Shown: one piece after another, positions 1-15,448 of the stretch
Layout: every line of letters starts with the position of its first letter
How positions within the stretch are numbered: position 1 is the stretch's first letter
Notes under the pieces: generated by a model
What the model was told of the DNA's origin: nothing
Seen by the model: the letters and a program-made list of their open reading frames with translations, nothing else
Database searches by the model: none
IMG/VR virus record: IMGVR_UViG_3300005913_000114
Coordinates: 1 to 21,445 of that record
Direction: 5' to 3' (one strand)
Source: a virus
DNA length: 21,445 nt
Translations under genes and position numbers: made by a program

Positions 1-5
1 AGTTA

Positions 6-590
6 ATGAAGTACAAAATAGTAGTGTGCTTGGGTTCAGGTGGGGGGTTTATACCCCGTATAATGACACAAGCCCGGTTGGACTTACACGATCAAAGTAT
101 TTTTGAAGGAAATAAAGACTTCAATTGGGGGGATATAGGGGCAACTTACCTTGTAGATGCAGCCAATGGAGTAGGAGGTACACCTGATTATTTAGAAGAT
201 AATTCTTACTTTAGGTACCAGTTTAATCCAAGATTTATAAAAGATACAACAGAGAATGCGTATTACAACTTCTTTGTAAAACAGGATATTAAAATAGATT
301 TTCTGCATATAGATGCTGGACATTCTTACGAAGATGTTAAACAGGATTTTGAATTATACTCAAAACTCCTAGCTCCAAACGGAATGATATCTATTCACGA
401 TACAGATGAAAGATTTCAAAAAGAGCTTATTATTACAGAAGATGAAAAAGAGTACTACGACCTATTCGAAGGTCCACCGCGTTTTATTAAAGAAATAGGA
501 CCAGAATGGAAACAATTCAACTTCTTCAATACAGGTCAATTAGCAAATAAACCATCCTCAACAGGAATAACACTTTTACAACGTGCTTAA
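6..590 (+). CDS. Class I SAM-dependent methyltransferase (Methyltransf_24-like)
   Basis: A 194-residue protein that probably transfers a methyl group from S-adenosylmethionine to an unidentified acceptor. A glycine-rich stretch at residues 10-14 (GSGGG) follows the first beta strand and fits the SAM-binding motif I. Residues 99-132 carry the pattern of phage and bacterial methyltransferases of this type: FLHIDAGHSYE, then a helix, then GMISIHD. The first ATG is at base 6, but no in-frame stop is visible before it, so the gene may start outside the window and a few N-terminal residues may be missing. It overlaps the next gene by 8 bases, so the two are probably co-translated. Its place beside glycosyltransferases suggests sugar methylation, which is inference. 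Confidence 0.75.
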   Translation: MKYKIVVCLGSGGGFIPRIMTQARLDLHDQSIFEGNKDFNWGDIGATYLVDAANGVGGTPDYLEDNSYFRYQFNPRFIKDTTENAYYNFFVKQDIKIDFLHIDAGHSYEDVKQDFELYSKLLAPNGMISIHDTDERFQKELIITEDEKEYYDLFEGPPRFIKEIGPEWKQFNFFNTGQLANKPSSTGITLLQRA

Positions 591-1422
591 TTTAGTTACA
601 GTAGTTGGAGAAAATACACACATACTCCCTCATATGTTAAAACACTATGAAGACGTAGTGGATAAAGTATATGTAGTGGTATATAGACAGTCGGAAAGAG
701 ATGATATATTAGAAAAAGTAGAAGAACTAGGCATAACCCCCTATAAGGTTATAACCGAATCAAAGTATAATTGGAACAAAGTAACACAGTTGTATAATGA
801 AACCAAAAAAACAAAACCCAATGATTGGTGGATAGTATCAGATGATGATGAACTACAGGTATACCCTCACCCAATTGAAGACATTATTAACAAGTGCGAA
901 AGACATCAATATACCTTTGTCACAGGGGGGTTCTTAGATAGAATAGGTAGGGATGGTACTTTCCCAATAGTAACGAGAGACACTAACTTACACACATCTT
1001 TCCCTTTAGCAGGATTTTTTAGGTACCCGATGTCAGGGGCTTGCCCAAACAAGGTAACCTTAATGAAAGGACACCAGGATATAACATCCGGTCAACATTA
1101 CGCACAATTTCCGGACGGTACAAATAGTTGGGGAAAGTCTCACCCAAAGAGAATGCCGATAGAAGAGTGTTTTACTCAAGTTCACCATTTTAAATGGGAT
1201 TCAACTTGTATTAGTAGGATTAAAAAGGTTGCTAATACAAATATGAAGTATGCGTACTCAAAAGAGTATGAAACTATGTATAACGCAATTAAAATGTTTG
1301 ATTTTAAAATAGATATAAATAATCCTGAGTTTTTAGTCGAGACTTTACTAGAAAGTTCTTATATTGAGTATATGGATTATTCTAAATGGAATACATTAAT
1401 TAATAAAATAGTTACAATATGA
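583..1422 (+). CDS. Glycosyltransferase, GT2-like (GT-A fold)
   Basis: A 279-residue predicted glycosyltransferase. The N-terminus gives the first beta strand of a GT-A fold (LVTVVGEN). A second strand (VYVVVYRQ) follows, and an acidic metal-binding stretch (SDDDEL, residues 86-91) lies after a hydrophobic strand, as in GT2-type enzymes that bind nucleotide sugar through a divalent metal. The start must be GTG at 583, because the next in-frame ATG (about 633) would remove the first strand. It overlaps the upstream methyltransferase by 8 bases, and its stop overlaps the next start as ATGA. Donor and acceptor sugars cannot be told from sequence. The second half is less recognisable and probably holds the acceptor side. 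Confidence 0.75.
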   Translation: MLNLVTVVGENTHILPHMLKHYEDVVDKVYVVVYRQSERDDILEKVEELGITPYKVITESKYNWNKVTQLYNETKKTKPNDWWIVSDDDELQVYPHPIEDIINKCERHQYTFVTGGFLDRIGRDGTFPIVTRDTNLHTSFPLAGFFRYPMSGACPNKVTLMKGHQDITSGQHYAQFPDGTNSWGKSHPKRMPIEECFTQVHHFKWDSTCISRIKKVANTNMKYAYSKEYETMYNAIKMFDFKIDINNPEFLVETLLESSYIEYMDYSKWNTLINKIVTI

Positions 1423-1622
1423 GCAGCGAAAAATTAACAGAATACCAAAAACTGTCGCTAGAATTAAAAGAAAGACAGGTAAAAGCTAGTGAAAAGATAG
1501 CTACTAGTTTAGATGCACTTACTTTATGGTTTGAAGAAATAGATAAAGAAGACTGGGATAATAGATTACAATTCTACCTAAACGAATTTCACAAATTAGT
1601 ACCAGAGGATGTAGATGCATAA
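1419..1622 (+). CDS. Small helical protein of unknown function
   Basis: A 67-residue hypothetical protein. The composition (rich in Glu, Lys, Leu, Gln and Ala) and heptad-like spacing over residues 1-40 suggest a long amphipathic helix, followed by an acidic, Trp-containing segment (WFEEIDKEDW). I do not recognise a family. No signal peptide, membrane segment or cysteine is visible. It sits between two glycosyltransferase genes. Its start overlaps the upstream stop (ATGA) and its end overlaps the next gene by 8 bases, so it is well embedded in the operon and probably translated. It could be an adaptor or stabilising subunit of a neighbouring enzyme, but nothing in the sequence proves that. 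Confidence 0.65.
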   Translation: MSSEKLTEYQKLSLELKERQVKASEKIATSLDALTLWFEEIDKEDWDNRLQFYLNEFHKLVPEDVDA

Positions 1623-3063
1623 ACTGGGAATAATAGTCCCCTACAGAAATAGGCCCTTGCAATTAAGGGAGTTTACAAGAGAGCTCCCTATTTACCTTGA
1701 GCAGAATAATCCCGATGTTGATTACGAACTAATCATTGTTAAACAACAAGATATTAAAAAGTTTAACAGAGGTAAATTACTAAACATAGGTTTTTTAGAA
1801 GCAGAAAAAAGAGGCTGTGATTATGTTATATTCCACGATATAGATATGGTACCTGTAAAAGGAAGTTACCAATATAAGAATATACCACTTCAGCTTGCAA
1901 ATACATTTGTTATTGAAAGAGACTTTAGGAGGACTATAACTAAAGACTACTTTGGGGGTGTGACATTATTTCCTGTAGAACAGTTTAAAAAAATTAACGG
2001 ATACTCTAATAAATATAGAGGCTGGGGTTTTGAAGATAACGACCTTTTACTGAGAAGTAAGGAAATGAATCTCCCGTTAAGTAATAAAGAACTAAGGGTT
2101 CCACCGTTAAAAAAACCTATGTTAGAGTTTAACGGTAAAACATCGTTAGTAAAGGTCCCAAATAAATTCACCTTTGTAAGACCCATTTCATTTGTATGTA
2201 CATTCACCCCTGGTCCGGTAAAATGTAACCCCAACGAAATAACAGATGAATTTGCTGCGTTTGGGATACCGGGATATGACTTAAACTTGTCATTTAATTC
2301 ATTTAAGACATATAAGTTTGAATTATTTCTTGTTAACGATGTAACTTACTCTATTACAACTGATCAACTTCCTAATATGCCGGTAAGGTGTGTTGTAACA
2401 ATAGATCCAAGAACTAGAGAAATAGAGTTCTATGTCAACGGTAAACGAATTGGGAGCACAACTTGGGATAAGTACCAAATTAGAAAATATAATACCGAAC
2501 CTTTCCTTTACTTAGGAGTAGCATCTCCAGAAAGAAAAGACAAACCTAAATTCTTTAACGGAGTCATAGATAGCTTTGCTGTTTTTAATAAAGTATTGAA
2601 TAGAGAAGAGATAAAAGATATAAGTATTAATATAAAAGATGACTTACTCAATTCAAAAGAATTTGGATACACAGATGAACTGGTTACTTACTACGATACA
2701 AGGTATATAGAAGGTAACAACCTAAAGGATCTTTCTGGTAACAATAACCACGGTAAGATAGTAGACTGTAAAGTGGTAAATATAGAAACACCACCTAGTG
2801 TTGTAGAAAGGTACCCACATAGACGTAAATGTAAATACAGGTTACTTAAACATGAAGAAGGAGGATACAAAGACGGGTACTGGGTAGATTGGCAAAGTAG
2901 AAAAAACCAAATATACTACTATCAATTAGTAGAGAATAATTCTACTAATAGTGAAAACGATGGACTTAGTAACTGTTCGTATAAGTTATTAGAGGAACAA
3001 GAAATTAGGTACTACATTGGTAAAGTATCCTACATTTATACCAAACTAAACGTAAGAACATAA
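1615..3063 (+). CDS. GT7-type galactosyltransferase with nested LamG-like domain (first copy)
   Basis: A 482-residue protein. Residues 1-160 match the beta-1,4-galactosyltransferase family (GT7): VPYRNR (8-13), FNRGKLLNIGF (50-60), the metal-binding FHDIDMVP (73-80), FGG (113-115), and NGYSNKYRGWGFEDND (128-143), which corresponds to the family WGxEDDD box. Residues about 168-336 form a LamG/concanavalin-like beta sandwich (EFNGK at 171, FYVNGKRIG, NGVIDSFAVF). A further LamG-like stretch (KDLSGNNNHG, 371-380) follows. The end (about 405-482) then resumes GT7: KYRLLKH aligns with the metal-ligand MIRH segment of vertebrate B4GalT1, and NDGLSNCSYKLL with its DGLNSLTY segment. The sandwich therefore interrupts one catalytic domain. 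It is likely a sugar transferase; donor and acceptor are unknown. A paralog follows with a TAATG overlap. Confidence 0.85.
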   Translation: MHKLGIIVPYRNRPLQLREFTRELPIYLEQNNPDVDYELIIVKQQDIKKFNRGKLLNIGFLEAEKRGCDYVIFHDIDMVPVKGSYQYKNIPLQLANTFVIERDFRRTITKDYFGGVTLFPVEQFKKINGYSNKYRGWGFEDNDLLLRSKEMNLPLSNKELRVPPLKKPMLEFNGKTSLVKVPNKFTFVRPISFVCTFTPGPVKCNPNEITDEFAAFGIPGYDLNLSFNSFKTYKFELFLVNDVTYSITTDQLPNMPVRCVVTIDPRTREIEFYVNGKRIGSTTWDKYQIRKYNTEPFLYLGVASPERKDKPKFFNGVIDSFAVFNKVLNREEIKDISINIKDDLLNSKEFGYTDELVTYYDTRYIEGNNLKDLSGNNNHGKIVDCKVVNIETPPSVVERYPHRRKCKYRLLKHEEGGYKDGYWVDWQSRKNQIYYYQLVENNSTNSENDGLSNCSYKLLEEQEIRYYIGKVSYIYTKLNVRT

Positions 3064-4475
3064 TGAAACATAAATTAGGGGTATGTGTACCGTATAGAAA
3101 TAGAGAAGCACATCTACATGAATTTGTACCGAAAGTAGGAAAGTACTTAAAAAATCAAGGTATAGATTTTCAAATGTACTTTTGTCATCAAGTAGACGAT
3201 AAGTTATTTAATAGAGGGGCTACAAAGAATATAGCAGCAAAACATGCTATTGAAGAAGGTTGCGATTATGTTGTGTTTCATGATATAGATATGATACCAG
3301 AAGAGGGTACAGACTACTCATATCCCACAGAAGGACCTAGACACATAGCTACCAAAATATCTCAAATGGATTATGAACTTAAATACCACGAGTATTTCGG
3401 AGGAGCAGTTTTATTTACGAAAGAACATTTACAAGCTACTAATGGGTATTCAAATAACTATTGGGATTGGGGTATGGAGGATGATGATCTCTTTTGGAGA
3501 TGTCATGTAGAAGGGTTAACAAACGATACATACCTTACTAAACTAGAAAACCAGAAATATATAAAGTTTAACGGAAAAAATTCTTACGGTAAAATCCCTT
3601 TTGAAAGAAAATTAAGGGATTTAACAGCTAAATCACATACAGTCTCAATACTGTGTAGATCTTATCAGCAACCAGAAAAGAACCCAATATTTTTAATAGG
3701 AGACAAGAAGACTAAATATATTGAATACCCAATCTTCAGAATACCGGGATACGATTACGGGCTTTCTTTTAATAATTCGAAAGCTTTAACACTTACATAC
3801 TGGAATACCTTTAATCAACATAATTATATGTGGGTAAAGCGGTACGATAAACAGTGGAGCTGGGTGACAGCTGTGTTTAATTCAAACGAACAGTTAACTC
3901 ATTTATATTTAAATGGAACTGAAGTGGATTCAAAAGGAGGATATGGAAGCAGTTCTCCTTTAATCTATAAAGGAAAGTTAAAAAAATACGGGCCTAATGA
4001 TATTTATATTGGAACATCCCCATCTCAATCAGAAACCTCAACTAGTAAATATTATAAAGGAGATATAGCAAAAATATATGCTTGGACAGCCGCTCTGACC
4101 ACTACCCAGTTGGAGAATATTCATAAGGAAATCCCACAGGAAGAATTGGTATTGGATATTGATTTTAATAATCCTAAAGATGAGATATTTTTAAATAATA
4201 CAGAAGAACAGATAGAGACTTTTAACATCCCTAACTCTATACTCCCTTTTAGAAAGGAAGGAAAATTTACTTGTCTACCCCATGAAGACGAAGGAATAGT
4301 AGGGGGAGTATTTAAAAAAGGAGAAACAACCGCTGCAAATGAAAGAAGGTATGTACTCCAAATGCAACAAGGTAAAGTACAACACAAAGAAGACGGTATT
4401 TCGACTTTAAAATATACCGTAATAGGAGAAGATAAGTTAACACCTTGGGCAAAAATGCTTAATATAAAGTTATGA
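3063..4475 (+). CDS. GT7-type galactosyltransferase with nested LamG-like domain (second copy)
   Basis: A 470-residue paralog of the preceding gene with the same architecture. GT7 signatures are VPYRNR (9-14), FNRGATKN (49-56), FHDIDMIP (72-79), YFGGAVLF (111-118) and WGMEDDD (136-142), the last closer to the family consensus than in copy one. A LamG-like insert spans roughly 165-355 (IKFNGKNSYGKIP, LYLNGTEVDS, YKGDIAKIYAW). The C-terminal GT7 part resumes with GKFTCLPH (400-407), whose His407 is the candidate metal ligand, and DGISTLKYTVI (444-454). The two copies differ widely, so the duplication is old. The start overlaps the upstream stop (TAATG), and its own stop overlaps the radical SAM start (ATGA). 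A lectin-like insert could bind the acceptor glycan, which is inference. Confidence 0.85.
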   Translation: MKHKLGVCVPYRNREAHLHEFVPKVGKYLKNQGIDFQMYFCHQVDDKLFNRGATKNIAAKHAIEEGCDYVVFHDIDMIPEEGTDYSYPTEGPRHIATKISQMDYELKYHEYFGGAVLFTKEHLQATNGYSNNYWDWGMEDDDLFWRCHVEGLTNDTYLTKLENQKYIKFNGKNSYGKIPFERKLRDLTAKSHTVSILCRSYQQPEKNPIFLIGDKKTKYIEYPIFRIPGYDYGLSFNNSKALTLTYWNTFNQHNYMWVKRYDKQWSWVTAVFNSNEQLTHLYLNGTEVDSKGGYGSSSPLIYKGKLKKYGPNDIYIGTSPSQSETSTSKYYKGDIAKIYAWTAALTTTQLENIHKEIPQEELVLDIDFNNPKDEIFLNNTEEQIETFNIPNSILPFRKEGKFTCLPHEDEGIVGGVFKKGETTAANERRYVLQMQQGKVQHKEDGISTLKYTVIGEDKLTPWAKMLNIKL

Positions 4476-5842
4476 TACATCAAGAGGTAAAGGATAAGTT
4501 AGATAAGGTAGGGTGTGGGTTCTGTTTAGCTAAATGGTCACAGGTTACTATTCACTTAGGTACAGGAATGACTCATTCATGTCATCACCCGTCCCCACAT
4601 AAGATTCCGCTTGAAGAATTAAAACTTGATCCAAGTGCTCTACATAATACTAGTTTTAAGAAAAAAAAGCGTAAAGAGATGTTGGACGGTAAAAGACCGT
4701 CCGAATGTGATTTCTGCTGGAATGTAGAAGATAATTCTGATTCTTTCTCCGATAGAGTCTTTAAATCAGCAGAACCTTGGTCTTGGCAAGATTACGATAA
4801 AATTAAAAGCAGCCACTGGAATGAGAATATTAACCCTAGGTACGTAGAAGTATCATTTGGGAATACATGCAACCTTAAATGTGCATACTGTGGCCCTCAA
4901 TACTCCTCTAAATGGGTTGAAGAGATAGAACAGCACGGAGGATACCCAACCTCTCAAAACTTTAATAGTATAAAGGATATTAAAAAAAGAGGAGAAATGC
5001 CATATCTACATAAGGAATTTAATCCCTACGTAGAAGCATTTTGGAAGTGGTGGCCAGACTTATATAAAGATCTACATACTTTTAGAATTACAGGCGGAGA
5101 ACCCCTACTAACTAAAGATACCTTTAAGGTACTAGAGTACATACAGGAAAATTGGGAACAAAATCCTAACCTTTCTCTTGCTATTAACACTAACCTATCA
5201 GTACCTGATGCACTAATAGAAAAGTTTCTCCTAATTGCAAAAGATTTAACTGAAAACAATAAAGTAAGAGAGCTAATTATTTTTACTTCTGTCGAAGCTA
5301 CCGGTTCTCAAGCCGAGTACACAAGGTTTGGTCTTGAGTACGATAAATTTTGGGATAATATAGAAAAACTTCTTACAAAACTTCCGAAACTAACAGTTAC
5401 TATTATGGCTGCATTTAATGCTCTATCAGTATTTACCTACGGGGAGTTAATAGATAAGGTATTTGAGTTTAAACAAAGGTTTCATAATAAAGACAGGTAC
5501 TGGGGTGATGCACTTCAACTTGATACTTCTTACCTGAGATGGCCGACCCACTTATCAATTAAAATTCTAGAACCTGAACATAAACAGTTAATATATGATG
5601 CAGCTGTTAAAGCATTTTATTACGGTAAAAACCCACCTCCTAATGATACCGCTGGATATTCTGATATTCAGATACAAAAAATAAAAAGAACATATGACTA
5701 TGCCATTGGAGAAAGTAACTTTGATGTAGAGAAAAACAGAAAAGACTTTGCTTCATTTATTACGGAATACGATAAAAGAAGAGGAACTAATTTTATAGAA
5801 ACCTACCCTGAACTAAAAGAACTGTATGTTAAGTATAAATAA
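4472..5842 (+). CDS. Radical SAM enzyme with N-terminal twitch/SPASM-like module (copy 1)
   Basis: A 456-residue radical SAM protein. The CxxxCxxC cluster motif is Cys133, Cys137 and Cys140 (CNLKCAYC), and the SAM-contact GGEP motif is at 208-211. Ahead of the core is a cysteine-rich module with FCLAKW (C18), SCHHP (C37) and CDFCW (C79, C82), which resembles the twitch/SPASM auxiliary cluster but at the N-terminus. Two features are shared only with the copy at 6401: CHHP in place of the more usual CC, and the HKIPLEEL segment (residues 43-50). NPYVEAFWKWW (184-194) is also shared with that copy. It should bind two iron-sulfur clusters and make a 5'-deoxyadenosyl radical. The substrate is unknown. 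Neighbouring glycosyltransferases hint at a sugar or glycopeptide. Confidence 0.88.
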   Translation: MIHQEVKDKLDKVGCGFCLAKWSQVTIHLGTGMTHSCHHPSPHKIPLEELKLDPSALHNTSFKKKKRKEMLDGKRPSECDFCWNVEDNSDSFSDRVFKSAEPWSWQDYDKIKSSHWNENINPRYVEVSFGNTCNLKCAYCGPQYSSKWVEEIEQHGGYPTSQNFNSIKDIKKRGEMPYLHKEFNPYVEAFWKWWPDLYKDLHTFRITGGEPLLTKDTFKVLEYIQENWEQNPNLSLAINTNLSVPDALIEKFLLIAKDLTENNKVRELIIFTSVEATGSQAEYTRFGLEYDKFWDNIEKLLTKLPKLTVTIMAAFNALSVFTYGELIDKVFEFKQRFHNKDRYWGDALQLDTSYLRWPTHLSIKILEPEHKQLIYDAAVKAFYYGKNPPPNDTAGYSDIQIQKIKRTYDYAIGESNFDVEKNRKDFASFITEYDKRRGTNFIETYPELKELYVKYK

Positions 5843-6401
5843 TAAAGAACCATGGGCATTTTGGCCAACAAGAATCTGTAATGGCTTTTCTCCATTAGCA
5901 GGAAACCAGCTAATTAGCGGTAGATACAACTTCGAATTTTCCTTAGATTTTACCATTAGAAAAACCTACGGATTGAAAAGTACAATCTTTTCCATACTCC
6001 CTATTTACACTTGTCTCAATTACTATAATGAACATATGAGTAATATAGATGTACATACTAAAAAGGGTAGAGATTGGAGAGAAATAAAGGATACTATATT
6101 TATAAATAAAAAACATAATGTTACTGTTAAAAACCTAGCTAACAGTACATTTACAGTATGTATAGATAACGAAGTAGTTATAGAAACTCAACAATTTAGC
6201 CATGTTACAGATCCTCAAATGATATTTGGAGCTACTAACCTTCCGTGGCATCATGATAACCATAACTACTGTGATATAGATCTACATGAATTTAAGATGT
6301 TTCATGATGATACCTTAATTGCATATAATAGATTTAATAAGTATTTTTACGATAAGTCTTTTGACATATCCAATAACTGTAATTTTATACACAAAATATA
6401 A
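5826..6401 (+). CDS. Stand-alone LamG/concanavalin-like beta-sandwich protein
   Basis: A 191-residue protein that reads as one jelly-roll lectin-like domain: alternating beta strands (YNFEFSLDFTI, HNVTVKNL, FTVCIDNEVVIE) and a closing strand with the LamG-like pattern DIDLHEFKMFHDD. No signal peptide or membrane segment is seen. It overlaps the upstream radical SAM gene by 17 bases, and its TAA overlaps the next ATG (TAATG). It lies between the two radical SAM genes that share the CHHP motif, suggesting a shared pathway. Because a similar fold is inserted in both GT7 proteins upstream, this may be the same module carried separately for glycan binding. Family assignment rests on pattern only, without an alignment. 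Confidence 0.6.
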   Translation: MLSINNKEPWAFWPTRICNGFSPLAGNQLISGRYNFEFSLDFTIRKTYGLKSTIFSILPIYTCLNYYNEHMSNIDVHTKKGRDWREIKDTIFINKKHNVTVKNLANSTFTVCIDNEVVIETQQFSHVTDPQMIFGATNLPWHHDNHNYCDIDLHEFKMFHDDTLIAYNRFNKYFYDKSFDISNNCNFIHKI

Positions 6402-8026
6402 TGGGAATATTCGCAAAAAAAGAAAACGAAACATTTCAAGAATACAGAGATAGAGCTGTAGACAGCCTCTCTCCTTCTTTCTGCGGTGCTAAATGGTATA
6501 ACGCTACAATATGGCTAGGTAATGGTCAAACAGCATCCTGTCACCACCCTCCTGCACATAAAATACCTTTAGAAGAATTAAAGTTTAGTTACAAAGCACT
6601 TCACAATACTAAATATAAGAAAGCAGTTCGTAAGCAGATGATAGAAGGTATAAGACCTAAAGAATGTGAATACTGCTGGAAAATAGAAGATTTAGGGAAA
6701 GATAAAGTCTCTGATAGAGTTTATAAATCTGTTATATATACAGATGAAGAGCTCAAAGATGCAAAAGAAGTAATGGGCTATGCAGAGGACGTCGACCTCA
6801 AAACATTAGAGATAGCATTTGATGCTAATTGTAACTTTGCTTGTTCGTACTGCAATGCTTCCTTCAGTACTACATGGCAAAAAGATATTAAACAAAACGG
6901 CCCTTACCAGAATCTTGTATCAGACGGTGCAAAAGCATTCCAACATGACGGTTCCCATGCCATGCCTTACGGTAGAAAAAATAAAGATAATCCTTACGTA
7001 GAAGCATTTTGGAAATGGTGGGAAGCAGAACTTCAATACAGCTTAAGAGAACTAAGGGTAACAGGAGGAGAACCTTCGATGTCACCAGATTTCTGGAAAC
7101 TTATGGAATGGTGGAAAGAACACCCAGAATGTAAAGTCCCTTTCGCCGTAAATTCAAATCTAGGTCAAAAGAAACAGCTACTGGACGCTTTAATAGAATC
7201 AACACATAGTTTTAAAGACTTTAGTATATACACCTCTAATGAAGCAGTAGGTCTCCAATCTGAATATATAAGGTACGGTTTGGAATGGGATGTTTGGTTA
7301 AAAAATATGTACAGGGTAAATGAAGAAGGAAATTTAAAAGCAGTTAACGTAATGATGACTATTAATGCGTTGTGTCTATTTTCTATCACAGAGTTTATGG
7401 ATGAAATGCTAAAGCTTAAAGCAAAATTCGGCGACCAGGCTGCAGTAATGTCGTTCAATATACTACGTTTCCCCTCCTTTCAATCGATAGTTACACTGCC
7501 CGAACACATTAGACTAGAAAGAGCAGCCCATATAGAAAAATGGTTAGAGGAAAAATGGAACGGTGGAAAAAATGGTTTCATGCAACATGAAAAAGATGGT
7601 CTACTTAGATTAATAGAGTACATTAAAACAGTACAAACCGGCCATGAGTTTACTTCTTCCTTAGAATCAAGAGAAAGAGACTGGAAGTCTTTCTATAGAC
7701 AGTACGACAAAAGGAGAAATAAAGATTTTAAGACAGCATTTCCTATGTTAGGAGAATGGTATGATAGTATACCAGAAACCAACTTAACACCATTAGTGAA
7801 TGCTGTAGACGGGGATGATGCTAAATCTAATAAATATGTAGAGGGCGTCCTGAAACAAGCTAAAGATGAAGGATGGGTTTTAAACGCTCAATGGGCTAAT
7901 CCAGGATCAGAATCCTATATTGAACCTGATGATGAACAGCAAGATTCTATGATAGACTTAATAGAGCAGTTAAATAAAGATAAACAAACAAACCCTGTAA
8001 AAAAATCAGATAACACTCTAACTTAA
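6401..8026 (+). CDS. Radical SAM enzyme with N-terminal twitch/SPASM-like module (copy 2)
   Basis: A 541-residue radical SAM protein, the longest of five in the window. The core cluster motif is Cys144, Cys148 and Cys151 (CNFACSYC), with GGEP at 222-225. The N-terminal auxiliary-cluster cysteines are C28 (FCGAKW), C47 (SCHHP), C89 and C92 (CEYCW). It pairs with the copy at 4472 through CHHP, HKIPLEEL, ALHNT and NPYVEAFWKWW, so these two form a subgroup. About 80 extra residues at the C-terminus, acidic and low in complexity near the end, have no match in the other copies. Substrate unknown; likely iron-sulfur dependent and cytoplasmic. The start overlaps the upstream stop (TAATG), and the next gene begins 2 bases after its stop. 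Confidence 0.88.
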   Translation: MGIFAKKENETFQEYRDRAVDSLSPSFCGAKWYNATIWLGNGQTASCHHPPAHKIPLEELKFSYKALHNTKYKKAVRKQMIEGIRPKECEYCWKIEDLGKDKVSDRVYKSVIYTDEELKDAKEVMGYAEDVDLKTLEIAFDANCNFACSYCNASFSTTWQKDIKQNGPYQNLVSDGAKAFQHDGSHAMPYGRKNKDNPYVEAFWKWWEAELQYSLRELRVTGGEPSMSPDFWKLMEWWKEHPECKVPFAVNSNLGQKKQLLDALIESTHSFKDFSIYTSNEAVGLQSEYIRYGLEWDVWLKNMYRVNEEGNLKAVNVMMTINALCLFSITEFMDEMLKLKAKFGDQAAVMSFNILRFPSFQSIVTLPEHIRLERAAHIEKWLEEKWNGGKNGFMQHEKDGLLRLIEYIKTVQTGHEFTSSLESRERDWKSFYRQYDKRRNKDFKTAFPMLGEWYDSIPETNLTPLVNAVDGDDAKSNKYVEGVLKQAKDEGWVLNAQWANPGSESYIEPDDEQQDSMIDLIEQLNKDKQTNPVKKSDNTLT

Positions 8027-8028
8027 TA

Positions 8029-9336
8029 ATGGAATTAGATCCACGTAACATATCAAAAGAAAAGACTTTCTGTTCTGCTCCTTGGATGCACCTTCACGTG
8101 ATAAACGATGGAAGAGCTTTTCCTTGCTGTATGACTGAAATTAGTGATGATCATGTAGTAGGAAATGTAAAGGACAATTCTCTCTTAGATATTCTCAATA
8201 GTCCAAAAATGAATGCTATGAGAAAAGGTATGTTAGAATCTAAAAGTTTACCTAAATCTTGTGAGAGATGCACAGGCAGAGAAGAATCAGGTTTTAGTTC
8301 TATGAGACATGGAATGAATGATCAATGGTATTCAAAAATTGATGATTTAGTTAAGAAAACAAATGTCGATGGGTCTATAGATGAAGTAAGACTACTTTAC
8401 TGGGATATTAGATTTTCTAACTACTGTAATTTAGCTTGTAGAACCTGCCACCCTATATTTTCAACCTCATGGGCTAACGACTATATTAGATTAAGATCTC
8501 ATGATGATAACGTAGAATTAGGACTCCAAAATTTAGACAACGAAACAAATTTTTGGAAAGAATTAGACGAAAACCTATCATTAGCACAGGAAATACATTT
8601 TGCAGGAGGGGAACCTATACTTATGCCAGAGCATTGGAAAATTATAGAATTTTTAGAAAAAACTAATAGGTTTGATGTAAAGTTAAAATACTCTACAAAT
8701 GCTACTAAACTAATAGTAAAGGGAGTAAACATATTAGACGTATGGGAAAAATTTAATAACGTACATTTAAGTTTATCAATAGATGGAACAGGAGATCATT
8801 TTGAACTAACTAGACATAAGGGCAATTGGGAAAAAACAAAACAAAACCTTATAGAAATAAGTAAAAGCAACCTTAGGTACTGGGTACATCCAACAGTAAG
8901 TATCTTGAATATTTTACATATAACGGATCTACACAGAGAACTATTCGATTTAAATCTTATTCCAAATACAATTAGAGATTGCGAACAAGAAGTAGACTCT
9001 ACTACAGGTAAAGTACATGGATTTGATGAGCAAGATTACTTTACTATAAGATTTCACATAAACCCATGCATACACCCAGACATCTATTCAGTTCATAATA
9101 TACCGGAAGATATAAAAGAAATTGCTTGTAAAAAGATAATGCAATATGCTAAAGAATATAAAACCAGATACAACATACCTACAACCGGCTGGGAGTCTTT
9201 AGTGGATTTAATGAATAGTCAAAAGTGTAATATGAAAGTTTTTAATAAGTTTGTGGAGACAACTAAGAAACTGGATAAAATTAGAAATCAAGACTTTTGT
9301 AAAATCCAACCAGAATTTAAAAAGTATTTTAATTAG
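8029..9336 (+). CDS. Radical SAM enzyme with N-terminal twitch/SPASM-like module (copy 3)
   Basis: A 435-residue radical SAM protein with the CxxxCxxC motif at Cys133, Cys137 and Cys140 (CNLACRTC) and GGEP at 193-196. The N-terminal module is the classical form of a SPASM/twitch cluster-binding segment: FCSAPWMHLHV (C15), DGRAFPCC (C33, C34), GNVKDNSLLDI, then CERC (C78, C81). This differs from the two upstream copies, which have CHHP. LSLSIDGTGD is a typical radical SAM barrel strand. The gene starts 2 bases after the preceding stop and is followed after 3 bases by an SGNH hydrolase gene. NCBI annotation, as I recall it, calls such proteins twitch-domain-containing radical SAM proteins. The substrate is not deducible. 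Confidence 0.9.
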   Translation: MELDPRNISKEKTFCSAPWMHLHVINDGRAFPCCMTEISDDHVVGNVKDNSLLDILNSPKMNAMRKGMLESKSLPKSCERCTGREESGFSSMRHGMNDQWYSKIDDLVKKTNVDGSIDEVRLLYWDIRFSNYCNLACRTCHPIFSTSWANDYIRLRSHDDNVELGLQNLDNETNFWKELDENLSLAQEIHFAGGEPILMPEHWKIIEFLEKTNRFDVKLKYSTNATKLIVKGVNILDVWEKFNNVHLSLSIDGTGDHFELTRHKGNWEKTKQNLIEISKSNLRYWVHPTVSILNILHITDLHRELFDLNLIPNTIRDCEQEVDSTTGKVHGFDEQDYFTIRFHINPCIHPDIYSVHNIPEDIKEIACKKIMQYAKEYKTRYNIPTTGWESLVDLMNSQKCNMKVFNKFVETTKKLDKIRNQDFCKIQPEFKKYFN

Positions 9337-9339
9337 GAT

Positions 9340-10272
9340 ATGAAGGAAATTAGAGGCTCATTGCACACCTACTTATATAGCGATAAATCAGAAACATCCT
9401 TTGAGTCTTTCCTAAAAAGGGAATTTTTTATAGTAACCGATAATGATAAAGTAGAAACAAAAATTGCTGATCTAAAAAAAGATGAATTTTTAGAAGTAAC
9501 TTATTCAAGTGAAAATGAAAAAGAACGATCTCAAATTGCAATTAGAGATAATCTGACACTGTTTAAAGAAGAGGATGTTTCTTATAGAGTAAACAGACTA
9601 GGGATAAGAACTTCTGGAATAGATTTAGTAAAAGATTATACACATACCCTTATGGCAGGAGATAGCTTTACTTTTGGAGAAGGTATACCTTATAAAATGA
9701 CCTGGCCATATCTAATATCTAAGAAATATAATTGCTCATTTGAAAACCTAGGGTACCCAGGTGCATCTATTTCAAAAATTGCAAGAATACTTACTACTAT
9801 ACTGCCTATCAAAAAACCTAAGAGGGTGGTAGTACTTTTTCCTACAAGCGGAAGACAGGAACTAGTTATTGATGCACCACCAAGCAGTAATGACCGAGAT
9901 TATTATACCATTAATTATCAAGCAGGGTTTCCTCCAAAAGAGGGTACGTTTAGACAGCCCTGTATAGATTATGAAAAGTCTCTTACTTCCCATGTAGACA
10001 AACTTGATATGTATAAAAATTTTTATATTATAAAACTATTAGCAGATAGTTTAGGTATAGAACTGGTAGTTTCAAGTTGGGATACAGAAGTATATAAGGA
10101 ACTTTTTAACGTATTTGATGAGAGTCAAATAGCAGGACATTTTCATTACTTAGCCCGAGATAAAAAAAATGATAAAGCAAGAGATGGAATGCATCCTGGA
10201 GAAAACCCTAATATAATTTTTGCAGACGCTATTGAACGCGCTATAGGTAAAAGAAAACAAAAAGATAGATAG
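9340..10272 (+). CDS. SGNH/GDSL-family hydrolase
   Basis: A 310-residue protein with an SGNH hydrolase core in its second half. Block I is MAGDSFTFGEG (nucleophile Ser109), block II is NLGYPGAS (Gly138), and block V is DGMHPG (Asp282, His285). The block III position shows FPTSGR (167-172) instead of the usual GxND, a variation that leaves the oxyanion-hole Asn uncertain. The first 100 residues are charged and not recognised. Family members act as esterases or O-acetyl removers or transferrers on sugars and lipids; here a sugar acyl group is a reasonable guess from the neighbouring glycosyltransferases. It begins 3 bases after the radical SAM stop. An 87-base gap follows, one of the few in the island. 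Confidence 0.8.
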   Translation: MKEIRGSLHTYLYSDKSETSFESFLKREFFIVTDNDKVETKIADLKKDEFLEVTYSSENEKERSQIAIRDNLTLFKEEDVSYRVNRLGIRTSGIDLVKDYTHTLMAGDSFTFGEGIPYKMTWPYLISKKYNCSFENLGYPGASISKIARILTTILPIKKPKRVVVLFPTSGRQELVIDAPPSSNDRDYYTINYQAGFPPKEGTFRQPCIDYEKSLTSHVDKLDMYKNFYIIKLLADSLGIELVVSSWDTEVYKELFNVFDESQIAGHFHYLARDKKNDKARDGMHPGENPNIIFADAIERAIGKRKQKDR

Positions 10273-10359: not shown

Positions 10360-11703
10360 ATGAAAATTAAACCTGAAGACGGTAATAAAACTTTCTGCAT
10401 GGTTCCTTGGTCCCACACCTACCTTTCACCTCAAAGTGAAAGAAGACTATGCTGTGCTTCTAGAGAAAAAGCTAACTGGGCAACTCAATACATTGATAAT
10501 GAATCTGCAGATGAAAAAGCAACATATAACCCAGGAACTTTAAAAGACCATTGGAACTCAGAGTATATGAAAAATATACGCAAGAATTTAATGGAAGGAA
10601 AACAAATTCCTCAATGTACAGTATGTAATGATAAGCTATTAAATATATCGGTATATAGGGACTATTTTAATAAGAGTTTATTCCCAAATAAGATAGAAGA
10701 GGCTTTTGATAAAACAACAGAAGACGGTCACACTGAAATGTTACCTATATCGTTTGACTACAGAGTTAGAAACCTATGTAATTTCAAATGTAGAATGTGC
10801 GGCGATCAGTTATCCTCTTCCTGGGAAGCAGAGAAAAGGCAAATGGGAGATTACGATACCGAAGGTCATACAGATTTCTGGGCATTAAAAGAAAATAAAC
10901 CGGCAATAGAGAATTTTCAAAAGAACGTAGCAGAAGAGGAGCTATGGGAAGCTGTTAAAAGTGGTAGAATTGAAGAAATATACTGGGTAGGTGGAGAACC
11001 GCTTATGTGGGAAGTCCATTGGCAAGTAATGGAATATTTAATTGAGAATGACTTAGCAAAAAATGTATGGATTCGCTACAATACTAATTTTTCTAGAACT
11101 ACATATAAACATTGGGACTTAAGAGAGATATTACCTCATTTTAAAAAAGTTCAGATATGTGCATCAATTGATGGAGTAGGAGAAAATGTAGAATATGTTA
11201 GACATGGAATTAAATGGGATAGTTGGATTAAAAACTTTAAAGACTTTTTATTTTTAAATGAAAAGTATGGAGAATACGGAATAGCTTTTGACCTAACAAT
11301 TACTACACCGGGTTTATTCTGTCTTAAAGAAATGCTAGATTTAGCATTAGAACTAAACGTTCAAACACTTATTAAAACTACATTTGCATTCGATAGCTCT
11401 ATAACTATGTGTCCACAAGTGCTGCCTCGTAAACTATATGATGAGGTGCTTGATGATTTACTTGACTATATTACACCAAAAGTAGAGAATACTAAATACT
11501 CCAACTGGATTGACTGTTTAACAGATTTAAAATCAAGACAGGTCTTTTCTGAGATATACCCAGACTGGAAAGAAGGGCTTACCAAAGGTAAAAAAAACTT
11601 ACAGAGAGTAGATAAGTGGAGAAAAAATGAAGGAGACATAGAAAAAATATACGCCAAACACCCAGGCGTTTTAGAGTGGTGGAACTCAATAGAGATTATA
11701 TAA
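10360..11703 (+). CDS. Radical SAM enzyme with N-terminal twitch/SPASM-like module (copy 4)
   Basis: A 447-residue radical SAM protein. The core cluster motif is Cys140, Cys144 and Cys147 (CNFKCRMC), and GGEP is at 211-214. The N-terminal module has FCMVPW (C13), RRLCC (C31, C32) and CTVC (C86, C89), so the four-ligand set for an auxiliary cluster is present. VQICASIDGVGEN is the usual barrel strand with the substrate-side Asp. The middle region (about 150-200) is longer than in copy 3. The gene starts after a short non-coding gap with an A/T-rich leader and no Shine-Dalgarno sequence. Its stop overlaps the next ATG as TAATG. Substrate unknown. Confidence 0.9.
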   Translation: MKIKPEDGNKTFCMVPWSHTYLSPQSERRLCCASREKANWATQYIDNESADEKATYNPGTLKDHWNSEYMKNIRKNLMEGKQIPQCTVCNDKLLNISVYRDYFNKSLFPNKIEEAFDKTTEDGHTEMLPISFDYRVRNLCNFKCRMCGDQLSSSWEAEKRQMGDYDTEGHTDFWALKENKPAIENFQKNVAEEELWEAVKSGRIEEIYWVGGEPLMWEVHWQVMEYLIENDLAKNVWIRYNTNFSRTTYKHWDLREILPHFKKVQICASIDGVGENVEYVRHGIKWDSWIKNFKDFLFLNEKYGEYGIAFDLTITTPGLFCLKEMLDLALELNVQTLIKTTFAFDSSITMCPQVLPRKLYDEVLDDLLDYITPKVENTKYSNWIDCLTDLKSRQVFSEIYPDWKEGLTKGKKNLQRVDKWRKNEGDIEKIYAKHPGVLEWWNSIEII

Positions 11704-12926
11704 TGGTACCAGGAGAAGGATATAAAAAAAGAGCATTTTGTGTACTACCCTTTATACATCTAGCTACTCACCCAATAGGTACTGTAACCCCATGTTGTGT
11801 TACGGATATGAAAGATGGAGTATCAACTGCCGCTGTTGAACAACATGATGATGTACATTTATTCCTTTCAAAGGATAGCTTAGATGATATAGCTAATTCT
11901 AAAAAGTTTAAAGAAGTAAGGAAGCAAATGATTAATAATGAATTTCCATCTGTTTGTAAATCCTGTTATAAGTATGACGACAACAACGTACATTCTAAAC
12001 GAATGGAATCTAATCTTAAATTCTCGCATTTGATTAATGAATGCTTTAAGAATGTTAATCCTGATGGTTCTTTAAAGAGAGTTAACTACAAATATGTAGA
12101 ATTAAGACTGGGTACTGTATGTAACCTTAAGTGTACTACCTGTAATCCATTTTCATCTAATAGGTGGCATCAAGATATAGGAGCATTTAAAGGTACAGAA
12201 TTTGAAAAAGATTACTTCAAGAACGAAATCAAAACTGAATGGTTTAGGGATACAAATTTTTATGATGAGCTGTATAGCAAGTGTGATGGATTAGAAGAAG
12301 TATGGATTAATGGAGGTGAACCAACCTTAATAAAGGAGCACGGTTACTTTTTAAAAAAGTTTATTAATGACGGTACAAGTAAAAGTATTAATTTACACTA
12401 CAGCTTAAATTGTACCCAGTTCCCTGATTACTTTATTGAACTATGGAAACATTTCGGTAAAGTAAGGATACATCTCTCAATTGACGACTTAGGAGAAAGA
12501 AACCACTACGTTAGATACCCTTCAGATTGGACTGTTATAATGAAAGCACTGGATAAAATATTAAAGTATAGAGATATTTTTGATTTAGAAATGTGCCAGA
12601 CTGTGAGTGCACTAAATGTGTATAACCTAAATAACTTTAGAAAGTTTACTAAAGACCATGGACTTATAATAGCATATAATTATGTACAATACCCAGATCA
12701 TTTACATGTTAGTCTAATTCCTGAAGAAATGAAAACAGGAATTGTTAATAATATAGATGAATTAGTACCTTACGAAGCCGAAAAATTAAAATTAGAATTA
12801 TTTAGAGAAACTAGACAAAAAGACATAGATAGGTTTTATTCTTTTATAAATATAATGGATAAGCAGAGAAACGTAAAGATAGGAGATTACTTACCAGAAT
12901 GGAATGAATATTTCTTAGACAAATAA
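11703..12926 (+). CDS. Radical SAM enzyme with N-terminal twitch/SPASM-like module (copy 5)
   Basis: A 407-residue radical SAM protein if started at ATG 11703. I prefer this to the in-frame GTG at 11676 because it gives a TAATG overlap, as at two other junctions, and puts FCVLPF at the same distance from the start as in copy 4. Motifs: C13, TPCC (C31, C32), CKSC (C85, C88), core CNLKCTTC (Cys140, Cys144, Cys147) and GGEP (204-207). RIHLSIDDLGERN replaces the more usual SIDG with SIDD, a small departure at a position facing the active site in related enzymes. The next gene, a truncated SGNH fragment, starts 10 bases after its stop. Substrate unknown. Confidence 0.9.
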   Translation: MVPGEGYKKRAFCVLPFIHLATHPIGTVTPCCVTDMKDGVSTAAVEQHDDVHLFLSKDSLDDIANSKKFKEVRKQMINNEFPSVCKSCYKYDDNNVHSKRMESNLKFSHLINECFKNVNPDGSLKRVNYKYVELRLGTVCNLKCTTCNPFSSNRWHQDIGAFKGTEFEKDYFKNEIKTEWFRDTNFYDELYSKCDGLEEVWINGGEPTLIKEHGYFLKKFINDGTSKSINLHYSLNCTQFPDYFIELWKHFGKVRIHLSIDDLGERNHYVRYPSDWTVIMKALDKILKYRDIFDLEMCQTVSALNVYNLNNFRKFTKDHGLIIAYNYVQYPDHLHVSLIPEEMKTGIVNNIDELVPYEAEKLKLELFRETRQKDIDRFYSFINIMDKQRNVKIGDYLPEWNEYFLDK

Positions 12927-13133: not shown

Positions 13134-14432
13134 ATGTCGTACAGTAATTATTTATTAGAGAGTTACAGCGGAAAAATCTTTTACGGTGTAGATTCTTATA
13201 ATAATAACTTTATTTATCAGGATCCAATAGGATCAATTGTTTATAATCTGCTTTATTTTATTGAACATAACATAAAGTTTATTTACCCAATCCTATGTCT
13301 TGATCCATCGCTTTTCCTGAAAGATCCCCCCAACCTAAACAGTAAAGTAGTAGAAGCATGTAATAACGGACTATGTAGAGTAGTTATAATGTTTAATACT
13401 GAAGGGTATCAAGCAGGTACTACATTTTTTGAATGGTTAGAAACATTTGCTATAAAAAATAAATTAAATTTTACTAACTTTTTTTTAGCACACGGTAATA
13501 GAAAACTAGCGAAGTCTTACCTGCATTACTTAAGCAGTGAAAGAGATCCAAGAGTAAGTATATTAAAATACTCTTACTTTCAAGATTTCCCTTGGTTTAT
13601 ATATAACGGCGATAGTAACTCCCCACAAGGAAAGGACACCCTTAAACACTTTAGTAAAGTTCTGACTAACAATAGAGAAGTAAGAAAAGTAAAACACTTT
13701 CTATGTTTAAACAGAGTACCTAGAACAAGTAGAATGCTGATGTTTGCAATAATAGCATCAAACGAGGACTTAAATAGTAAGACTATACTTTCTATAGGAT
13801 CTGGTGAAAACTGTCCCAATAGTAAAACCAAGTACTTGAAGCGACACCCAGAAATAGAACAAGACTTACCCAGCTGGTTGCTCCTATCATATGAAAATGA
13901 AGAAATACCGCTCCGTTTACAGAATTTTATTAATTCATACAACTGGGAAGAACGTAAACATGTTCTCGATAACTCGAAAGATACGAACAAAGCAAACGAT
14001 GTAAATTTAGATTTTCACAAATCTACCTTTTTAAATATAGTCACAGAAACACTTACAGAAAATAATACTATATTTTTCTCAGAAAAGATATTCAAACCGA
14101 TATATATGCTTCAGCCTTTTATACTTCTAAGTAGTAAGAACTCACTAAAGGAACTAAAAACACTTGGGTATAAGACTTTTGACAGATGGTGGGATGAAAG
14201 CTATGATGAGGAAGATAAATTAGTAGATAGAGTATTAAAAATAGAAAAAGTATTAAAGAGACTGAGTAAATTAACTCCTGATGAACTCTATACAATGACT
14301 ACTGCTATGGAAGATACTTTGGTACATAATTATAGTGTATTTTTATTAGAACCAAAACAAGAATCTTTAGATTATTTCAATTTGTTAAGCTTTAATCAGA
14401 ATATTTATAATTATAAAAATGAGTTACTATGA
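13134..14432 (+). CDS. Probable glycosyltransferase (GT-B/fucosyltransferase-like C-terminus)
   Basis: A 432-residue protein of a type common in phage glycan islands but poorly characterised. The most telling part is FFSEKIFKP (314-322) followed by QPFILLSS and, after a short helix, LGYKTFDRWWDESYD (344-358). This E-K helix resembles the nucleotide-sugar binding end of GT-B fucosyltransferase-like enzymes. Residues 188-200 (HFLCLNRVPRTSR) probably begin the second Rossmann-like half, and FNTEGYQ (87-93) lies in the first. The gene at 14489 shares the C-terminal motif, so the two are distant paralogs. Its stop overlaps an ATG that begins a 14-codon remnant (stop included) of the dehydrogenase gene found further downstream. 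Function as a transferase is inference. Confidence 0.6.
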   Translation: MSYSNYLLESYSGKIFYGVDSYNNNFIYQDPIGSIVYNLLYFIEHNIKFIYPILCLDPSLFLKDPPNLNSKVVEACNNGLCRVVIMFNTEGYQAGTTFFEWLETFAIKNKLNFTNFFLAHGNRKLAKSYLHYLSSERDPRVSILKYSYFQDFPWFIYNGDSNSPQGKDTLKHFSKVLTNNREVRKVKHFLCLNRVPRTSRMLMFAIIASNEDLNSKTILSIGSGENCPNSKTKYLKRHPEIEQDLPSWLLLSYENEEIPLRLQNFINSYNWEERKHVLDNSKDTNKANDVNLDFHKSTFLNIVTETLTENNTIFFSEKIFKPIYMLQPFILLSSKNSLKELKTLGYKTFDRWWDESYDEEDKLVDRVLKIEKVLKRLSKLTPDELYTMTTAMEDTLVHNYSVFLLEPKQESLDYFNLLSFNQNIYNYKNELL

Positions 14433-14458
14433 AAATAGGTTTTATAGGAGTTGGAAAA
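14428..14458 (+). repeat. Direct repeat, left copy (31 bp)
   Basis: This is identical to 15507-15537 over 31 bases, and similarity ends on both sides. The two copies flank the gene at 14489 and its leader. The repeat lies at the 5' end of the dehydrogenase reading frame. It looks like the scar of a recombination event and not a transposon end, since no inverted repeats or transposase are present. Confidence 0.9.
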
Positions 14459-14470
14459 GTTAAGGAATAG
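14429..14470 (+). pseudogene. 5' remnant of the nucleotide-sugar dehydrogenase gene
   Basis: This short frame encodes MKIGFIGVGK followed by VKE and a stop. Its first 30 bases (14429-14458) are identical to the first 30 bases of the intact dehydrogenase gene at 15508, and the match includes one base before the ATG. The ATG overlaps the upstream stop as ATGA, the junction style used elsewhere in this operon. I infer that the dehydrogenase gene once started here and that a segment of about 1,050 bases was later inserted or duplicated, leaving this stub. Confidence 0.8.
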
Positions 14471-14488
14471 TAATTCTAATTTAATACA

Positions 14489-15448
14489 ATGATTTATACA
14501 AAGAGTACACAGACACTTTATGCTCACGTATGGGCATGGTACACAGTTGATGAATTGATTTCCTTTATGGAGAATCATAAACCTATTAGATTCATTTTAG
14601 ACTGTTCGTCAGAATACGAACCACCAGGAAGTTTTAACAATAAAAAAGAGCTAGTTAAATTAAATCAATACATTAAGACCAATAGTATAGAATCTTACAT
14701 AATACTAGGTAGCTGTAATATACATACATACCCAGCTCATAAAAAACCTTTAGACATATTACCGGATTTTAATTTTTTAACTTACCCCTTAACTTTTTGC
14801 GGTATAGTTTACAATACGCTACCTTACACAAATGAGTATAATAAGCCGACGCATTTATTTTATGCTCTAATTAATAGGCCCCATACACATAGATGTATAT
14901 TAGTAGATGAAATAGTAAATAAACGTTTGAGTGAATATGGTAAATTTACTTGGAATAAATTAACTGAAGGTAAGTACAATTTTAAGCACTGGCATGAAAA
15001 AATAATAATACAGAAGGGAGAATGGCTTGAAGATGACGCTTATAGTAAACCGGAATTGCAATACTTTACTTCTGTTTTTGATCTAGTGGTAGAAACTACG
15101 ATTGAAACAGCTTTTTTTACTGAAAAAACTTTCAAACCAATTTTATTAGGAAAGCCTTTTCTTATATTTGGAGCTCCTAAAATTAGTACATCCTTAGCTG
15201 AACTAGGATTTCAACTGTACGATGAAGTTATTGATTATAGTTTTGACCAGATAGAGGGGACAGAAGAGAGAGCTAAGGCTTTATGTCTAGAGCTCAAAAG
15301 AATTGCATTGAGGTATTCATTAGAAGAAATATTATTAATTTTAAAAAATAAAGTAGAGTTTAATAGAAAATTAGCAATAACACTCGCCCAAGACCCCTCT
15401 CATACAGCTATAACTATGGTTAATAATTACGTAAAGGGTTTTTATTAA
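14489..15448 (+). CDS. Probable glycosyltransferase-like protein in an inserted segment
   Basis: A 319-residue protein sharing its C-terminal motif with the gene at 13134: FFTEKTFKP (209-217), GKPFLIFGAP (221-230), then LAELGFQLYDEVIDYSFD (237-254). The N-terminal half is shorter and different (LFYALINRPHTHR at 123-135 matches the strand-loop before the second domain). It is probably an enzyme of the same broad type with another substrate. It starts 18 bases after the dehydrogenase remnant stop, and a direct repeat follows at 15507. The gene therefore sits alone in a cassette that appears to have entered the operon later than its neighbours. A transferase role is inferred from motif and context only. 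Confidence 0.55.
   Translation: MIYTKSTQTLYAHVWAWYTVDELISFMENHKPIRFILDCSSEYEPPGSFNNKKELVKLNQYIKTNSIESYIILGSCNIHTYPAHKKPLDILPDFNFLTYPLTFCGIVYNTLPYTNEYNKPTHLFYALINRPHTHRCILVDEIVNKRLSEYGKFTWNKLTEGKYNFKHWHEKIIIQKGEWLEDDAYSKPELQYFTSVFDLVVETTIETAFFTEKTFKPILLGKPFLIFGAPKISTSLAELGFQLYDEVIDYSFDQIEGTEERAKALCLELKRIALRYSLEEILLILKNKVEFNRKLAITLAQDPSHTAITMVNNYVKGFY

Follow-up and report, generated by a model that had tools for sequence, protein, structure and literature searches.

A LamG-like domain interrupts the GT7 core of two tandem proteins encoded by an uncultured phage

The window examined here, i.e. the whole stretch of DNA that was analyzed, comprises 21,445 nt and corresponds to positions 1-21,445 of the IMG/VR record IMGVR_UViG_3300005913_000114. 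A tail sheath gene at 17051-18772 marks it as derived from a contractile-tailed phage. Two neighboring open reading frames (ORFs) encode proteins, termed A and B, in which a laminin G-like (LamG) domain is located inside the catalytic core of glycosyltransferase family GT7. An earlier note, made from the sequence alone, had described them as tandem GT7 proteins with LamG in the middle, and this description was borne out by the ORFs at 1615-3063 and 3063-4475 and by Pfam matches above the cut-offs. The features of both genes are as follows.

1615..3063, + strand: protein A, predicted GT7 enzyme with nested LamG, 482 residues (ORF, Pfam, AlphaFold2 model)
1615..2085, + strand: A, GT7 core part 1, residues 1-157 (GT7N and GT7C; phmmer match to B4GalT1, E 1.1e-21, residues 2-148)
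1831..1848, + strand: A, FHDIDM, the DxD metal/nucleotide motif (sequence)
2023..2043, + strand: A, WGFEDND, the Trp loop with the catalytic acidic residues (sequence)
2086..2811, + strand: A, LamG-like insert with linkers, residues 158-399 (Laminin_G_3; fold match of 166..396 to 4dqa, Z 21.5)
2812..3060, + strand: A, GT7 core part 2, residues 400-482, with PHRRKCKYRLLKH, the lid helix and DGLSNCSY (profile match to the B4GalT1 C terminus)
3063..4475, + strand: protein B, predicted GT7 enzyme with nested LamG, 470 residues (ORF, Pfam, AlphaFold2 model)
3063..3530, + strand: B, GT7 core part 1, residues 1-156 (Pfam; phmmer match to B4GalT7, E 6.6e-29, residues 3-152)
3276..3293, + strand: B, FHDIDM, the DxD motif (sequence)
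3468..3488, + strand: B, WGMEDDD (sequence)
3531..4241, + strand: B, LamG-like insert with linkers, residues 157-393 (Laminin_G_3 at 171-349; fold match to the PAPP-A LamG, Z 21.2, and to pentraxins)
4242..4472, + strand: B, GT7 core part 2, residues 394-470, with PFRKEGKFTCLPH, the lid helix and DGISTLKY (family profile match)

The GT7 motif starts within about the first ten residues of either protein. Pfam GT7N was matched with E-values of 1.5e-17 (A) and 2.5e-18 (B) and GT7C with 2.5e-16 (A) and 3e-19 (B), all within the first ~160 residues. Scores against the GT7 profiles PF13733 and PF02709 were 63.9 and 59.5 bits for A and 66.4 and 68.9 bits for B, exceeding the cut-offs of 27 and 23. 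Laminin_G_3 was found in the middle of both proteins (A, E 3e-10, 40.9 bits; B, E 8.4e-10, 39.4 bits) above its curated cut-off of 27.6. Matches to PHROGs were modest, the best having E-values of 1.4e-5 for A and 0.0023 for B.

The models were superposed on known structures with VIA-align. The mean predicted local distance difference test score was 92.0 for A and 92.1 for B, with predicted template modeling scores of 0.88 and 0.86. On bovine B4GalT1, model A aligned with a Z-score of 26.8 (root mean square deviation 2.1, 211 residues aligned, model 1..482 on 179..398) and model B with a Z-score of 27.5 (1.9, 214 residues, model 1..470 on 178..398). Over the 23 B4GalT entries in each VIA-align list, the GT-A core was shared across 192-214 residues at 1.7-2.5 Å. 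Both models superposed on B4GalT1 and B4GalT7 from residue 1 or 2 to the last residue, and their GT-A fold includes the C-terminal part of the B4GalT catalytic domain. The matches to LamG and pentraxin folds were centered on residues ~160-396. The superposition that had been proposed as a check thus did not place the C-terminal residues off the core; rather, the last ~80 residues supply the end that the GT7 core would otherwise lack, as had been claimed.

Could the tail nevertheless be unrelated to GT7, resembling it by chance behind a plain C-terminal LamG fusion? The C-terminal segment taken alone scored only about 5.7-6.7 bits against B4GalT1 with the family profiles, yet the match is colinear and lies at the corresponding end. 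The same part reached 20.7 bits against an uninterrupted bacterial GT7 (L078), and its His, Asn, and Gly are near-invariant. When the two core parts were joined, a profile of eight proteins from which LamG had been excised aligned with human B4GalT1 in a single stretch, 2-228 of 230, at E 5.1e-46. The Pfam GT7C match on A grew from profile positions 17-61 to 17-77 of 78 once LamG was cut out, which places LamG inside the Pfam GT7C domain. Hence the GT7 profile does not end before LamG, the second check proposed for this layout. Together with the whole-core superposition, these data contradict a chance resemblance of the tail, which we consider hardly credible.

A comparison set was assembled of 316 distinct ORFs with the first GT7 half from 245 loci, drawn from many different IMG/VR datasets. 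The second half was present in 305 of them, separated from the first by fewer than 40 residues in 28 and by at least 150 (largest 337) in 277, with none between 40 and 150. It was not found in the other 11, 8 of which run off the end of the locus. The interrupted set comprises 124 distinct A-type, 124 B-type, and 29 third-type proteins. With 277 distinct proteins showing this layout, chance, an assembly artifact, or a frameshift was ruled out as its origin. Eight loci in which the A gene appeared N-terminally short were checked (L017, L033, L034, L045, L047, L050, L064, and L066); in 8/8 the N-terminal GT7 part continues upstream in frame, and the short forms are attributed to the rule that only ATG was accepted as a start or, possibly, to an intervening stop.

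The distance between the Glu of WGxED and the metal-binding His separates the two groups. It is 27-28 residues in 28/28 uninterrupted proteins, compared with 238-294 in the 124 A-type, 250-286 in the 124 B-type, and 272-361 in the 29 third-type proteins, and none fall between 27-28 and 238-361. The distances of about 273 and 268 given earlier for A and B are exact (E140-H413 and E139-H407). The uninterrupted GT7s, among them the bacterial L075-L078 and viral contigs such as L087, have the same core, and many of them share an R[RK]xx[KR][YF]xxLxH-like entry to the metal His. On four bacterial representatives (one Parachlamydiaceae, two Planctomycetota, and one Sneathiellales), the family profile matched in two pieces and skipped the LamG columns; the independent E-value of the second piece was 2.1e-6 in one and 0.004-0.013 in three. 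Superposition, joined-core profile, and uninterrupted relatives agree that in A and B a LamG-like domain is nested within a continuous GT7 catalytic domain. Because the core is complete without the insert, A and B are assigned to GT7 as a variant despite the ~240-residue interruption, continuity being usual in this family rather than a curated criterion for membership.

In human B4GalT1, the Trp loop spans residues 309-318 and the lid residues 338-365; Met340 and His343 are among the metal ligands, and the N-acetyl group of the acceptor is bound by Arg355, Phe356, and Ile359 of the lid (PMC6198961). In the joined-core alignment, the insertion maps to about human 329/330, i.e. to the linker joining the Trp loop to the lid, ~8-9 residues N-terminal to the lid and 13 N-terminal to the metal His. 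The LamG domain therefore adjoins the lid. The earlier proposal that it occupies a flexible loop near the donor and metal site holds as to nesting and proximity but has to be corrected as to the position, which is the linker and not the lid itself.

Most residues expected of an active GT7 enzyme are conserved. Like B4GalT1 and B4GalT7, A and B have the DxD and WGxED motifs, the metal His, the lid-helix Asn with Arg/aromatic, and the C-terminal DG motif. Among the A-type proteins, W137, G138, E140, D141, N431, and G450 were present in 124/124 and H413 in 123/124; D75 and D77 were present in 117/124 and 118/124, the remainder being gaps. The B-type proteins have W, G, E, and D of WGxED as well as H407 in 124/124, and both DxD aspartates and the lid-helix Asn in 123/124 each, with one gap each. 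In both types the donor-sugar Arg (R52 in A) and both DxD aspartates are kept wherever they are aligned. The same is true for the equivalents of Arg224 and Glu313, which hold Gal in human B4GalT1 (PMC6198961). The Arg-Phe pair of the lid helix (355-356, contacting the N-acetyl group) is R/K-Y/F in most relatives.

In the third type, Q44, N51, D75, G114, N431, and G450 are kept in 29/29. As aligned, it retains Trp in 13/29, Glu in 11/29, and Arg52 in 3/29 (lacking them in 16, 18, and 26, respectively) and lacks His in 10/29. Since several donor-site residues are lost, the third type would by its sequence be either a pseudoenzyme or an enzyme with another donor. These losses would also suit a view of the GT7 core as a relic, with all of these proteins being catalytically dead LamG carriers. 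For A and B this is very unlikely, as the catalytic residues are kept in essentially all 124 + 124 proteins, a pattern that would hardly be expected unless activity were under selection. Examples of such tandem GT7-LamG paralogues upstream of A, possibly pseudo-glycosyltransferases, are found at L120:260-1963, L018:3992-5578, and L089:1016-2578.

The inserts of A and B adopt a concanavalin A-like β-sandwich with fold matches up to Z 21.5. That of A matched 4dqa (BACOVA_03559) and also PAPP-A and pentraxins; the matches of the inserts to the PAPP-A LamG, PTX3, SAP, CRP, and 4dqa had Z-scores of about 17-21.5, and no entry was titled glycosyltransferase. The LamG profile matched 276/277 interrupted ORFs, and no other domain was established at the same insertion point among these 277. 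The insert of the exception, L112:772-2229, is possibly a divergent LamG or a different domain. In the B-type LamG, Y255, W257, K259, R260, and W265 are conserved at 98-100% in 124 proteins; conserved positions are much scarcer in the A-type LamG. As judged from this conservation, the B-type residues (window 3531-4241) form a candidate ligand site.

The gene order is conserved as well. An A gene is followed by B in 120/124 cases (1 unknown), with at most 30 nt between them in 108/120. The third type precedes A in 26/29 cases (3 unknown); seen from A, it is located upstream in 24/124, is missing from more than 2.5 kb in 85, and could not be judged in 15. In 236 loci with a typed GT7 gene, which partly overlap and many of which end close by, the orders were A-B (149), third-A-B (33), uninterrupted alone (37), A alone (7), third alone (4), B alone (3), A-B-B (2), and third-A (1). 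Uninterrupted forms were single in 37/37 loci within the examined flanks.

In the window, A and B belong to a block of enzyme genes 5' of the sheath gene. Besides a methyltransferase, a GT2-like protein, five twitch-domain radical SAM proteins, and a 191-residue LamG-like protein, this block encodes a sub-threshold GDSL protein, two Pfam-negative proteins, and a UDP-glucose/GDP-mannose dehydrogenase family protein. The closest sheath among GenBank phages belongs to Flavobacterium phage immuto (65.7% identity), which carries genes annotated as lysozyme, tail fiber, structural, and hypothetical ahead of its sheath gene, whereas the window has enzyme genes there. The neighbors with assigned features are listed here.

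3..590, + strand: methyltransferase (Methyltransf_24, Pfam 2.9e-12; start possibly outside the window)
583..1422, + strand: GT2-like glycosyltransferase (Glyco_tranf_2_4, Pfam 1.3e-6)
4472..5842, + strand: twitch-domain radical SAM protein 1 (NF033640, E 1.9e-100)
5826..6401, + strand: 191-residue LamG-like protein (no Pfam match; hhalign to the A-type LamG insert, probability 94.9)
6401..8026, + strand: twitch-domain radical SAM protein 2 (NF033640, E 9.9e-93)
8029..9336, + strand: twitch-domain radical SAM/SPASM protein 3 (NF033640, E 3.1e-105; SPASM)
10360..11703, + strand: twitch-domain radical SAM protein 4 (NF033640, E 1.5e-95)
11676..12926, + strand: twitch-domain radical SAM/SPASM protein 5 (NF033640, E 4.4e-100; SPASM)

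Neighbors were counted in 132 interrupted loci (not all on different contigs, with limited flanks) and compared with 28 uninterrupted loci. Homologues of the GT2-like protein were present in 127/132, of the methyltransferase in 94/132, and matches to radical SAM protein 1 in 115/132, although radical SAM paralogues may cross-match; all three were found in 0/28 uninterrupted loci. From these counts, the usual unit is methyltransferase, GT2-like protein, optionally the third type, A, B, and radical SAM proteins, with the order of the neighbors read from the window and their presence from the other loci. A homologue of the 191-residue LamG-like protein occurred in 26/132 interrupted loci. This protein is free-standing, is encoded between radical SAM genes, and is remotely similar to the A-type insert; it is a possible substrate or partner. 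In hhalign its probabilities against the A, third, and B types were 94.9, 86.4, and 0.9, the alignment used for this control being shallower.

Searches of 50,697 GenBank phage records at the set E-values returned only four lipothrixvirus records for A, via its LamG part, and zero matches for B, for the uninterrupted GT7 L075, or for radical SAM protein 1. A scan of non-eukaryotic cellular genomes, which relied on exact short peptide patterns, yielded 15 loci. Three of them (L072-L074, contigs of 9-23 kb from metagenome-assembled genomes, MAGs) were interrupted and four (L075-L078) uninterrupted; L079 (a fragment) and L080-L086 (weak or WGxED-only matches) were excluded from the counts. L073 and L074 belong to the Flavobacteriales MAG NAT55. 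Three phage tail sheath family matches were found in the bin of L073 and none in that of L072. Given these three matches and the two cassette contigs, the NAT55 bin probably contains phage contigs.

On balance, A and B are probably metal-dependent GT-A/GT7 enzymes with an acceptor-holding LamG, which arose by one fusion followed by duplication and act in one pathway. Both would be active GT7-type glycosyltransferases, most likely transferring from UDP-Gal or a similar UDP-hexose to a GlcNAc/HexNAc-like acceptor. The LamG domain, sitting in the linker from the Trp loop (WGxED) to the lid that carries the metal His and the acceptor-binding helix, would be tethered at the base of the lid and hold a glycan or glycoprotein acceptor, or a partner, beside the active site. 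The GT7-LamG fusion would have arisen once and been duplicated to give the order third type (where present), A, B. A and B might attach sugars one after the other, in a pathway shared with the GT2-like enzyme, the methyltransferase, and the twitch radical SAM enzymes. The target of this pathway could be a virion protein or a host surface glycoconjugate; for pelagimyophage glycosyltransferases, surface glycans have been proposed (PMC7029224). Several radical SAM families that match window proteins far below the cut-offs are peptide maturases; others, e.g. MoaA, are not.

Several observations weigh against parts of this proposal. The metal-binding pair expected from the MIRH of B4GalT1 is only half preserved: the His is present (H413, H407), but the Met of MxxH is replaced by Leu in A and Cys in B of the window. 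This position is mostly Leu, Val, Ser, or Thr in the A-type and Cys in 119/124 B-type proteins; it is Ser in 22/28 uninterrupted GT7s, and the Met ligand is thus not a GT7-wide feature. In the lid helix, A of the window carries a Tyr at a position that is Arg in most relatives. Three of the 124 A-type genes are without a B gene after them. LamG domains also bind proteins or act structurally, carbohydrate binding not being a defining property of the fold. Finally, the interrupted proteins did not form one clade in free trees, calculated after redundancy and length filtering from 24/28 uninterrupted and 50 (first tree) or 49 (second tree, from which the long row L094_1179 had been removed) of the 277 interrupted proteins. 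The first tree needs two changes of state and the second three, and a single change suffices in 0% of 200 bootstrap trees.

These topologies would agree with a separate insertion of LamG into each of the three types once an uninterrupted GT7 had been duplicated. A single clade was, however, not rejected by the approximately unbiased test (p 0.355), and the insertion point is identical in all three types. Moreover, their LamG domains are mutually homologous (hhalign probability 99.9, E 6e-36 to 8e-33), and the uninterrupted genes are invariably single, as stated above. We therefore judge independent insertion to be quite unlikely and favor a single GT7-LamG fusion followed by duplication, which fits the common insertion point, the homologous LamG domains, and the gene order. 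The succession of fusion and duplication put forward earlier is consistent with these features, while the free trees do not bear it out.

The role of LamG as a lectin also has to be weighed. It may instead be a docking or oligomerization module that either replaces a dimer interface of the B4GalT1 type and joins A, B, and the third type in a heteromer, or docks them to LamG-bearing virion proteins. The rim of the B4GalT1 homodimer interface has salt bridges involving Arg330 and Glu313 (PMC6198961), and the insertion point is at about 329/330. The adjacency and conserved order of the genes agree with assembly, a third type with degenerate donor-site residues would suit a scaffold, and many predicted viral proteins are among the matches listed for the LamG part of model A. 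Folds of the LamG/pentraxin group, on the other hand, often bind glycans, and the conserved Y255, W257, and W265 of the B-type LamG would suit sugar binding. We consider docking possible but rather unlikely, and retain acceptor holding as the preferred function of LamG.

A more elaborate arrangement would be a multienzyme glycosylation machine, in which A and B, in some phages together with the third type as a regulator, form a complex whose lectins gate the lid and which acts on a radical SAM-modified protein. The nested lectins would then be a built-in counterpart of α-lactalbumin, which acts in trans on B4GalT1. A two-stage protein modification by radical SAM enzymes and glycosylation was not found in the literature searched on phage radical SAM and glycosyltransferase genes. 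We regard such a machine as unlikely.

Compared with B4GalT1 and B4GalT7, A and B have the ~240-residue LamG between Trp loop and lid and are devoid of the animal N-terminal stem. In GT27 ppGalNAc-transferases, a C-terminal ricin lectin is appended to the catalytic domain. GT54 enzymes (MGAT4) also combine lectin and glycosyltransferase in one chain, and the C-terminal CBM94 lectin of mouse MGAT4A/B is reported to be essential for function (PMC12616123). That lectin follows the catalytic domain, whereas LamG is nested in A and B; GT54 is thus a precedent for the function and not for the layout. The variable region of T4-like marine pelagimyophages combines tail fiber genes with several glycosyltransferases and with radical SAM cassettes; GT8 is named as most represented in their host-recognition cluster, and the words "galactosyltransferase" and "laminin" are absent from the main text of that paper (PMC7029224). 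The presence of 12 radical SAM genes in one T4-like marine genome has been noted earlier (PMC5332604).

No description of a GT7 protein with nested LamG was found in searches of the open-licence PMC literature. Nor was a nested example present in the VIA-align lists, which is weak evidence because these are restricted to the top chains of Foldseek. On the basis of the literature searches and the 50,697 GenBank phage records, the family is known, the domain is known, and the arrangement is new.

The GT7 lid closes over the active site. With a lectin-like domain between two moving GT7 loops, these 277 distinct proteins are a natural system for testing whether catalysis can be gated by sugar binding, and the layout may reveal a way of linking a sugar-binding module directly to catalysis. 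It also points to an insertion site tolerated by galactosyltransferases and marks a conserved, uncharacterized glycosylation and radical SAM cassette in uncultured phages.

Two further observations concern the enzyme block of the window. The protein encoded at 9340-10272, for which no homologue was found in the examined flanks of related loci, contains a GDSxxxG stretch resembling GDSL/SGNH hydrolases, below the Pfam cut-off. Two adjacent proteins (13134-15448), which have no Pfam match, share an FF[ST]EKxFKP motif that we take to be reminiscent of fucosyltransferase-like enzymes.

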